A stretch of 64,000 nucleotides of DNA from Balaenoptera acutorostrata (lineage: Eukaryota; Chordata; Mammalia; Artiodactyla; Balaenopteridae). Positions 10,671 to 36,284 of the stretch are shown piece by piece; positions within the stretch are counted from its first letter, which is position 1, and every line of letters starts with the position of its first letter. The position numbers and the translations under genes are program-made. A model generated the notes under the pieces. The model was not told where the DNA came from and did not search any database. It was given only the letters and a program-made list of their open reading frames with translations. The stretch lies in NCBI RefSeq assembly GCF_949987535.1, contig NC_080074.1, positions 38,919,641-38,983,640 of the forward strand. The letters are read 5' to 3'.

Positions 10671-11237
10671 TAATTGTAGACTCAAAATTGAGTATATTAA
10701 AAAATTTTAAGATGTGATGGTAATAAAAATATTTTTAAAAAACCATTAAAGTTTGTGGGTTCTAAAAGTTCAGAAATATCTCCTGAGTAGATGAGAGAAA
10801 GAGATGAGTCCAGTATCACTTTTAAAAATCATTTTATCTTGCCTCTCTTGCATCTATTAGGCTTTCCCAATGGTGTAACTATGAGGTGGGGATGCATAAA
10901 GAAAAAAGGAAAATTGTAAGCTTTGAATTTAAATTTCATTATAAAAGATCAATCATAACTTCTGTGAAAATAGAAAAATGTTCATTTCAAAATGAAACAA
11001 AAACATCATTTTATATTCTATGAATTAAATAGGCATAAATGAAATATACAATTACCAGAAAGACTTTTTGCACTTATTACATGTGCTATTGCCTATGGCA
11101 GAATCAGAGCAAACATTAATTATTATATTTATTATTTGCATGATAACTGGTAATGTAAAATAATTCAAATAAGACCCTACAAGTGAGGATTATTCAGATT
11201 TCAGAATTCTTTCAGAGTTTTTAAAAATTTCTTTTGA
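10671..11237. other. Intergenic, no gene seen; contains donor of a templated insertion
   Basis: AT-rich single-copy-looking DNA. Positions 11080-11120 reappear (one mismatch in 41 bases, same orientation) inside the CHR SINE at 13232-13272; see findings. Confidence 0.6.
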
Positions 11238-11566
11238 GGACTTCCCTGGTGGCGCAGTGGTTAAGAATCTGCCTGCCAATGTAGGGGACACGGGTTCGAG
11301 CCCTAGTCTGGGAAGATCCCACATGCCACGGAGCAACTAAGCCCATGCGCCACAATGACTGAGCCCGCGCTCTAGAGCCCACAAGCCCACGTGCTGCAAC
11401 TACTGAAGCCTGTGCGCCTAGAGCCTGTGCTCCGCAACAAGAGAAGCCACCACGTTGAGAAGCCCGCGCACTACTACAAAGAGTAACCCCTGCTCAGTGC
11501 AACCAGAGAAAACCCATGCACAGCAACGAAGACCCAACACAGCCAAAAATAAATAAATTAAAAAAA
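11238..11566 (+). mobile_element. CHR SINE (long form)
   Basis: Head GGACTTCCCTGGTGGCGCAG, GGGTTCGAGCCCTAG, full body with CACAATGACTGAGCCCGCG and the CCAACACAGCCAAAAATAAA end. An imperfect target duplication is visible: AAATTTCTTTTGA before and AAATTTTTTGA after. Confidence 0.93.
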
Positions 11567-12887: not shown

Positions 12888-13515
12888 AGATGAAGTGTGT
12901 TTCTCAGTGGAAAGCACAGGGGCTCTTGAATACAGGTGCTACTATTCTTTTTTTTTTTAAAGACATTTACCTTTTTAAAAAATTTTTATTTATTTTTTGG
13001 CTGCATTGGGTCTTCGTTGCTGCGCGCAGGCTTTCTCTAGTTGCAGTGAGCAGGGGCTACTCTTCGTTGCGGTGCATGGGCTTCTCATTGTGGTGGCTTC
13101 TCTTGTTGTGGAGCATGGGCTCTAGGTGTGTGGGCTTCAGTAGTTGTGGCACGTGGGCTCAGTAGTTGTGGCTCGCGGGCTCTAGAATGCAGGCTCAGTA
13201 GTTGTAGTGCATGGGCTTAGTTGCTCCACGGCATGTGCTATTGCCTATGGCAGAATCAGGGCAAACATTAATCTTCCCGGACCAGGGCTCGAACCCGTGT
13301 CCCCTGCATTTGAAGGCAGATTCTTAACCACTGCAGCACCAGGGAAGCCCCAGGTGCTACTAGTTTTAAGCAAGTTGCTTAACCTCTCTGAGTCTCAGTT
13401 TACTTATCTATAAAATGGGATAATAATATCTAATCCTCTGGGCTGAAAAGATAAAGAGAAACCAACCTAGCTCCAAGCCTGGCATATAAAGAGTTCAATA
13501 AGTATTTCTGAATTA
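12888..13515 (+). repeat. MIR SINE split by a CHR insertion
   Basis: The left part (12888-12944) and right part (13351-13515) join into one MIR. The right part holds AGCAAGTTGCTTAACCTCTC, TGAGTCTCAGTTTACTTATC and TATAAAATGGGATAATAATA, all in MIR order. The intervening DNA is the CHR SINE described separately. Confidence 0.8.
12945..13350 (-). mobile_element. CHR SINE (long form), antisense, with internal templated insertion
   Basis: Reverse CHR: T-rich tail, TTTGGCTGCATTGGGTCTTC, through to CCACTGCAGCACCAGGGAAG. Target duplication CAGGTGCTACTA at 12933-12944 and 13351-13362. It has an extra tandem CAGTAGTTGTGGC unit near 13130-13180. A foreign 41-bp block at 13232-13272 replaces the normal CATGTGGGAT junction. 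A non-A segment AAAGACATTTACC separates two T-runs in its tail. Confidence 0.95.
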
Positions 13516-14684: not shown

Positions 14685-14990
14685 ACTTTACTGTTTTCAA
14701 AGCACATACATGTGCATGATCTCATCAGACCCTCACAAAACTCAGTGAGATTGCAGGGAAGGATTAGTTCCCTCATTTTACAGAACCTCAGTGAGACTGA
14801 AGATTACAAATGCCCTTGTTTGACAGATGAAGAAACTGGGGATCAGTGAGAGATTTGATTTCTGAAAAGCACATAACTAAGACTTGAATTTCCAGATCAG
14901 TGTTCTGTCTAAACACTTTCTTTCTGAAAAGTACATAACTAAGACTTGAATTTCAAGATCAGTGTTCTGTCTACACACTAAATGAAAATA
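14685..14990 (-). repeat. MIR SINE, antisense, carrying a tandem duplication
   Basis: Reverse MIR: ATGATCTCATCAGACCCTCA, CCTCATTTTACAGAACCTCA, TGACAGATGAAGAAACTGGG. Its distal part is duplicated in tandem with a 62-bp period (14859-14920 and 14921-14982). Confidence 0.75.
14859..14982. repeat. 62-bp tandem duplication (two units)
   Basis: The unit starts TTTCTGAAAAG and runs through CATAACTAAGACTTGAATTT and GATCAGTGTTCTGTCT. The copies differ at only a few positions (C/T in AAGCAC versus AAGTAC, C/A in TTTCCAG versus TTTCAAG, and near the unit end). They are far closer to each other than either is to a MIR consensus, so the duplication is much younger than the SINE. Confidence 0.95.
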
Positions 14991-21315: not shown

Positions 21316-21665
21316 TTTTAAAAAATTAATTAATTTATTTTTGGCTGCGTTGGGTCTTCATTGCTGCATGTGGGCTTTTCTCTAATTGTGGCGAGCGGGG
21401 GCTACTCTTCTTTGCAGTGTGCGGGCTTCTCATTGCGGTGGCTTCTCTTATGGAGGAGCACGGGCTCTAGGCACGTGGGCTTCAGTAGTTGTGGCTCGTG
21501 GGTTTCAGTAGTTGTGGCTCGTGGGCTCTAGAGTGTAGGCTCAGTAGTTGTGGCGCATGGGCTTAGTTGCTCCGTGGCATGTGGGATCTTCCCGGACCAG
21601 GGCTCGAACCCGTGTCCCCTGCATTGGCAGGCGGATTCTCAACCACTGCGCAACCAGGGAAGCCC
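21316..21665 (-). mobile_element. CHR SINE (long form, internal 23-bp duplication), antisense
   Basis: Reverse long-form CHR ending CAACCAGGGAAGCCCC, with imperfect target duplication (AAGATACCTT / AAGATATCTT). The CAGTAGTTGTGGCTCGTGGG segment occurs twice in tandem near 21484-21530, and CTTATGGAGGAGCACGGGC replaces the usual CTTGTTGCGGAGCACGGGC. The CHR copy at 22308-22663 shares both traits. Confidence 0.94.
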
Positions 21666-22307: not shown

Positions 22308-22663
22308 GGGGCTTCCCTGGTGGCACAGTGGTTGACAATCTGCCTGCCAATGCAGGGGACACGGGTTCAAGCCCTGGTCCGGGAAGATCCCACATGCCAC
22401 GGAGCAACTAAGCCCGTGCGCCACAACTATTGAGCCTACACTCTAGAGCCCATGAGCCACATCTACTGAAACCCACGAGCCACAACTACTGAAGCCTACG
22501 TGCTTAGAGCCCGTGCTCCTCCATAAGAGAAGCCACCGCAATGAGAAGCCCGCACACTGCAAAGAAGAGTAGCCCCCGCTCACCGCAACTAGAGAAAGCC
22601 CACGCGCAGCAATGAAGACCCAACACAGCCAAAAATAAAAATAAATTTATTTAAAAAAAAAAG
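22308..22663 (+). mobile_element. CHR SINE (long form, internal duplication)
   Basis: Head GGGCTTCCCTGGTGGCACAG, B-box GGGTTCAAGCCCTGG and the complete body. A perfect 17-bp target duplication GAAATTGTGTAATTTTA lies at 22291-22307 and 22664-22680. It carries the same duplicated segment and CTCCTCCATAAGAG variant as the inverted copy 643 bp upstream. Confidence 0.96.
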
Positions 22664-25681: not shown

Positions 25682-25737
25682 TCAGAAACTAACACACCAT
25701 TGTAAAGCAATTATACTTCAATAAAGATGTTTAAAAA
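25682..25737 (+). mobile_element. Extremely 5'-truncated L1 insertion (about 50 bp of 3' end)
   Basis: Only the last bases of an L1 3' UTR remain (CAGAAACTAACACACCATTG through CAATAAAGATGTTT), then an A-run. It is flanked by the 14-bp target duplication AAAAAAGAAAGTGG at 25668-25681 and 25738-25751. Similarity to the L1 end at position 311 is high, so this is a young insertion. Confidence 0.93.
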
Positions 25738-26080: not shown

Positions 26081-26543
26081 AAGTTTGGGATTAGCAGACA
26101 CAAACTACTGTATATAGAATAAACAACAAGGACCTACTGTATAGCACAAGGAGCTATATTCAATATATTGTAATAAACTATAATAGAAAAGAATATGGAA
26201 AAGAATATGATATAACTGAATCACTTTGCTGTACACCAGAAACTAACACAACATTGTAAATTAACTATACTTCAATTAAAAAAATATGTATATATAACAA
26301 ATCTATAAAGAAAGTTTAAAGATCATATCTATCATTCACTGGTACCAAATCAATTTCCCGTACTGAATAGAGAAAAACCCGTGAAACAATAGCAACAATT
26401 CGAAGTCAAATATATATATAATGTTTAAGTTTAATAGCCAGGTAAGCTCACAAATTTAGATATTTTTAAAAGTGTAACAAGAATGTAATGTTGTTTTTCA
26501 ATAAAAGTTGTTTGCCAAAGTCTTTTAAAAAAATAAATAAATG
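26081..26543 (+). mobile_element. L1 insertion with a 3' transduction
   Basis: 5'-truncated L1 3' UTR at 26081-26289 (key phrases GGACCTACTGTATAGCACAA and AACACAACATTGTAAATTAA). It is followed not by a target duplication but by about 237 bp of unrelated sequence. That sequence has its own AATAAA at 26500-26505 and an A-rich tail starting at 26527. The whole is flanked by AAATTATAACTAGCTTG at 26064-26080 and 26544-26560. The L1's own signal reads CAATTAAA, a weak variant consistent with read-through. Confidence 0.93.
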
Positions 26544-35250: not shown

Positions 35251-35713
35251 GTCAGGATCTTGGCAATGTTGTTCTCTTTGTGGGGAGAACCCTTCCTCTT
35301 CCTCCCGTTTCTTGGCAAATTCCTACTTGTCTTTTTAGCATTTGGGTTTCAGATTCCTCAAAAAATCTTTTCTTGTTCCCTGAGCCTAGTTTAGTTCCCT
35401 CTGTTTTATGCTTCCATAGCACCTTATAATGCCCTTTTGTAAATTCACCCAATTATTCACTCAATTCTTGAGTGTCTACTATGTCCCAACTCCTGTTCTA
35501 GGTCCTATGTAGTGAACACAGACATAATTTCAACTCTTGTGAAGCTTATATTGTAGTCGGGTGGAGGTGGAGGAGGACAAGACAAACAAATAAGTACATA
35601 GAACTTTCTATAATTTTAAGTAATCTGCAGAAACATGAAGCAGGTTTGCGGGGGTTGGTGAGAGAGCCAAGGAAAGTAGGGGTGGATCCAGGGAAGTCCT
35701 CATGTATTAGATA

Positions 35714-36099
35714 CAGTAAGTCCCCTACATACGAACGAGTGCTGTTCCAAGAGTGTGTTCATAAGCCCAGTTTGTTCGTAAGTTCAACAAAGTTAGCCAG
35801 GTACCCAACTAACACAATCGGCTATATAGTACTGTTCTGTAATAGGTTTTTAATACCTATCACCACTGCTTTTACGCTTGTTTCCGGACATCCTGGGCTT
35901 GAAATAAAGATGCTGTACTACTGTACTCTATACAGTACTGTACAATAAAGTACACAAAAGCACAACCACTTGCGGAGGATGCACGCACGTGACAATGTAA
36001 GCCAGACACGTGAAGTAACTTACGTGATTGGACGTGCGAATGCACGTTCGCATCTTTGAAAGTTTGCAACTTGAAGGTTTGTATGTAGGGGACTTACTG
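35714..36099. mobile_element. Tigger-type (TcMar) MITE with intact terminal inverted repeats
   Basis: Left end CAGTAAGTCCCCTACATACG, right end its complement GTATGTAGGGGACTTACTG (36081-36099); the paired ends run about 23 bp. TA dinucleotides flank both ends (35712-35713 and 36100-36101), the mariner/Tigger target duplication. It is 386 bp long without transposase and resembles artiodactyl Tigger1-derived MITEs as I recall. Inserted into the antisense L2. Confidence 0.93.
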
Positions 36100-36284
36100 T
36101 ATAAGTAAATAACGAGTTTTCCCTGAGGATAACTAGGAAAAGTAGCACAGAGGAAACAGCAAGGGTAAAGGCCTTGAGGCAGTAATGTTCTGAAAGTATT
36201 TTAGGAACAGCAATGAGCCCTGTGCCTGGGGCACAGTCAACAAGGGAAAGGGTAGAAAGAGATGAAGACAAAGAGGCTTTGGGG

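Follow-up and report, generated by a model that had tools for sequence, protein, structure and literature searches.

A short insertion probably templated by nearby DNA, with microhomology at both ends, in a SINE of Balaenoptera acutorostrata

Introduction

Several described systems leave short insertions copied from other DNA, and here we compare with them a 41-bp block that lies inside a short interspersed element (SINE) in a 64,000-nucleotide stretch of the Balaenoptera acutorostrata genome (NC_080074.1, positions 38,919,641 to 38,983,640 of the forward strand; hereafter the window, with positions counted from its first base). POLQ-dependent insertions, as described in PMC7454005, often start and finish with microhomology, and those reported there from antibody class switching measure 2-35 bp, some with a source adjacent to the ends and others with one many kb distant. 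Among the mutagen-induced deletion-insertions covered by the data of PMC5068794, 2-3% came from more than 1000 bp away or from other chromosomes. Comparable insertions are known as human germline variants from the accounts in PMC8421209 and PMC5110952, and in the former two people yield 103 and 99 germline calls that measure at least 25 bp and span several classes. A search of the open-licence literature for "templated insertion" together with "cetacean" found no paper, which is not proof of absence in print. On its sequence, the block analysed here is best read as a one-off, microhomology-primed insertion that would have been templated by nearby DNA.

Results

A direct repeat shared by a SINE and nearby DNA

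The block at 13232-13272 (+ strand) repeats a segment at 11080-11120 (+), 2.15 kb away, in the same orientation and with 40 of 41 bases matching, both copies being present in the window. A first-pass annotation had listed this repeat and its single A to G mismatch, and its coordinates were exact. The sole difference falls at base 29 of the block, where the donor has A and the insert G, so that the two share an exact run of 28 bases; in a control restricted to exact direct repeats, 20 first-order resamples of the window gave maxima of 14 to 20 bases. Only two places in the 64 kb match the first 28 bases of the block with at most three mismatches on either strand, and 100 shuffles gave none. Self-BLAST of the window, run with the dust filter and an E cutoff of 1e-3, gave 122 off-diagonal hits and returned the donor and block as a pair with an E value of 3.9e-12. 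Given the 28-base run, this E value and the empty shuffles, chance is excluded as the source of the match.

Neither the 28-base search nor self-BLAST found a third copy of the donor within the window, and the repeat depth in self-BLAST was 1 at the sampled donor positions and 0 at two sampled flanking positions. The earlier description of the donor as non-repetitive therefore stands for the window. Five self-BLAST pairs, the donor and block among them, passed a filter that required one or both members to be of low repeat depth and so does not list every copy event. The 33-bp core of the block had no exact match in viral_contigs, a weak indication, since mammalian DNA is not expected in that collection.

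The SINE as recipient

The block interrupts a SINE at 12985-13350 on the - strand, 366 bp long with the block included, which was delimited by a SINE query search and alignment and which we take to belong to the family named CHR. One such SINE used as a query found 14 places in the window, itself included. The block is absent from all 13 other copies aligned from the window, and exactly at the insertion place 11 of these read GATCCCACATG in the SINE sense, the remaining two being one base off; the placement of the block inside an antisense SINE, as first annotated, is borne out. A probable 12-bp target duplication, CAGGTGCTACTA, brackets the host element at 12933-12944 and 13351-13362 (both +), and because of it we regard the SINE as probably having integrated as one unit. 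Judged from the aligned copies, none of which carries the block, and from the duplication around the host element, the direction of transfer is from 11080-11120 into the SINE. At the block itself neither poly(A) nor a target duplication was seen, in agreement with the view that it did not arrive by retrotransposition.

Microhomology at both junctions

Uninterrupted, the + strand of the element reads CATGTG-GG-ATCTTCCC, and the donor matches CATGTG on the left (6 bp, 13232-13237, +) and AT on the right (2 bp, 13271-13272, +), the two microhomologies that had been proposed from first inspection. With both assigned, GG is lost, 33 bases (13238-13270, +) are new and the net gain is 31; the first-pass annotation had GGG replaced, one G having been counted twice. 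No bases were added at either junction. When random junctions of the same geometry were simulated in one run of 200,000 draws over window positions 3000-60000, with pairs less than 200 bases apart skipped but kept in the denominator, a left match of at least 6 bp occurred in 0.00046 of draws, and 6 bp together with 2 bp, either way round, in 0.00008. Because microhomology of this extent is rare in random junctions, the ends of the insert were probably chosen by pairing and not by blunt capture. There is thus good support for local templating with microhomology at each end.

Age of the insert relative to the SINE

The host SINE has diverged by 4.4% (10/225) in a leave-one-out table of the seven long copies from which all columns with a CpG in any copy were dropped, and seven of the ten differences are private to the host. 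For an insert of the same age as the SINE, the four settings used predict 2.1 to 3.6 differences, and one is observed (P 0.12 to 0.39). The point estimate of the insert's age is about one third that of the SINE and its interval runs from 0.009 to 1.9 times, so that on these counts the block may or may not postdate the element. A higher host divergence of 9.2% (23/251), which would make the insert look younger than the SINE, was set aside as coming from a table that mixed SINE subfamilies.

Other repeats in the window

Two SINE copies at 21326-21665 (-) and 22309-22647 (+), inverted and about 640 bp apart, are 92.9% identical (315/339), against 82.5-86.9% for the remaining pairs among the seven long copies; the high value may reflect gene conversion or membership of one subfamily. 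A 59-bp near-tandem duplication (14859-14917 and 14921-14979) is 94.9% identical across a 3-base spacer. Three further stretches, 221-276, 25683-25725 and 26206-26279, are related through a motif like CAGAAACTAACACAACATTGTAAA, with pairwise identities of 85.7% and 88.4%, and presumably resemble the 3' end of a long interspersed element (LINE). An inverted match of 26 bp with one mismatch links 35711-35736 and 36077-36102, about 340 bp apart.

Discussion

Origin of the insertion

We tentatively favour, with a confidence a little short of even, a single germline event that copied 11080-11120 into the SINE, most likely by polymerase theta-type end joining. In such an event microhomology-primed DNA synthesis on a nearby template would have carried the donor letters into the element. 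The SINE would have been broken between CATGTG and AT and both ends resected, after which the 3' end on the right would have annealed through AT to the exposed single strand of the left side, at 11120, and primed synthesis there. Once it had copied back to 11080, the new 3' end would have annealed over six bases to CATGTG at the left end, and sealing would have cost the GG. The germline origin and the break are inferred, as are the polymerase, the sequence of steps and a resection of more than 2 kb; the local source, the direct orientation, the microhomology at both ends, the 2-bp loss and the SINE as recipient are shown. Microhomology-primed synthesis fits the direct orientation, the local source, the microhomology at both ends, the near-exact return and the lack of added bases. 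End joining of this type is favoured by the POLQ-dependent insertions noted above, with their microhomology at start and finish and sources that can lie many kb off, and by the 2-3% of distant sources in PMC5068794. Several points weigh against it. In the deletion-insertions described in PMC5068794, 37-44% map within 20 bp of the break and 47-50% are too short to place, and sources as far off as the present 2.15 kb make up a small fraction of the cases reported there. The loss at the junction is only 2 bp, sequence alone cannot identify the enzyme, and the count of two copies applies to the 64-kb window.

The same letters are predicted by a returning replication template switch of the kind termed fork stalling and template switching or microhomology-mediated break-induced replication (FoSTeS/MMBIR), in which a stalled nascent strand would have annealed to the donor and been extended by 41 bases before returning two bases further on; direct orientation, microhomology and near-exact return would all follow. 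We consider such a switch plausible, if somewhat less likely than end joining. Germline insertions of this general kind, as tallied in PMC8421209, have at least 1 bp of microhomology at 138/155 and 135/148 resolvable junctions, but the yeast events that paper cites have templates no more than 100 bp away, and the short-range model set out in PMC7954356 gives reverse-complement copies where the block is a direct one. The initial proposal of a template-switch or patch-repair scar holds as regards local templating and microhomology, while a replication switch and break repair are not separable from one sequence. A patch made from RNA or cDNA, either as a class 2 templated sequence insertion or through a reverse transcriptase jumping to a local template during SINE integration, seems unlikely: it would require a transcript of exactly this non-repeat segment, and the sources described in PMC5110952 are distant whereas the present one is 2.15 kb away. 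In its favour, reverse-transcribed RNA is the patch preferred for class 2 insertions in that paper, and the dating above is compatible with an insert as old as the SINE.

That the 41-bp block is a dispersed repeat which landed at both places is very unlikely, and this explanation was rejected on the lack of a third copy in the window. Copy number was covered for the 64 kb alone, which leaves room for it, but there are only two copies there, they sit 2.15 kb apart, and junction microhomology of 6 and 2 bp is not expected from such a repeat. We give next to no credence to an assembly or sequencing artefact; the analysis was made from assembled sequence, yet one base separates the two copies, and microhomology marks the join, which lies within a repeat that has no relation to the donor.

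A possible role for an inverted SINE pair

A second CHR-type SINE at 11238-11565 (+), inverted relative to the host, has its start 118 bases beyond the last base of the donor, and 78 bases of the host SINE lie between the end of the block and the far edge of the element. The two elements form inverted repeats in several stretches, for example 189 nt at 80%, 80 nt at 90% and 68 nt at 84%, and their cofold energy is -307.5 with the block and -313.7 without it, values that are energies alone and carry no shuffle control. It is conceivable, and in our estimation improbable, that the pair (11238-11565 and 12985-13350) folded as a hairpin while the DNA was being replicated or repaired, so that synthesis stalled in the stem and the donor came to lie near the target; the position of the donor suggests a site just outside the base of such a putative stem. 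If so, the scar would mark a deletion across the SINE hairpin that was aborted and went back to where it had begun, and direct-orientation patches of this sort would have their hot spots at inverted SINE pairs. The hairpin stays a suggestion, since inverted pairs cannot be rare with 14 SINE copies in 64 kb and its placement has no control.

Comparison with known systems

The scar is an ordinary, if unusually legible, templated insertion, a known kind of repair or replication scar, and there is no evidence for a function or consequence of this single event. Its legibility comes from the SINE consensus, a built-in record of the state before insertion, so that one genome is enough to identify the donor, the target, the loss and the microhomology. 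Should this prove more general, SINEs, being abundant, might be used as traps in which local templated insertions are counted even where a genome has no close relatives.

The locus has two features of a microhomology-mediated templated insertion, namely a near-identical insert with its donor retained and junction microhomology of 6 bp and 2 bp. Polymerase theta-mediated end joining (TMEJ), as characterised in PMC5068794 and PMC7454005, likewise yields microhomology at the start and end of the insert, a tiny loss and no added bases; the present source, 2.15 kb off, differs from the 37-44% placed within 20 bp in PMC5068794, where only 2-3% come from beyond 1000 bp or from other chromosomes. The MMBIR-linked germline insertions of PMC8421209 are similar in having inserts of at least 25 bp and microhomology at most resolvable junctions, and differ in that the templates of the yeast system cited there lie within 100 bp. 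With the class 2 templated sequence insertion polymorphisms of PMC5110952 the block shares the lack of a target duplication and of poly(A), the microdeletion and the junction microhomology; that class, as presented there, is defined by a distant source and ascribed to reverse-transcribed RNA, whereas the block has a local source and is known from one sequence. The four-point short-range template switch of PMC7954356 also involves a local switch and return, but the copy in the model as given there is reverse-complement and that in the block is direct, and the model does not describe this event.
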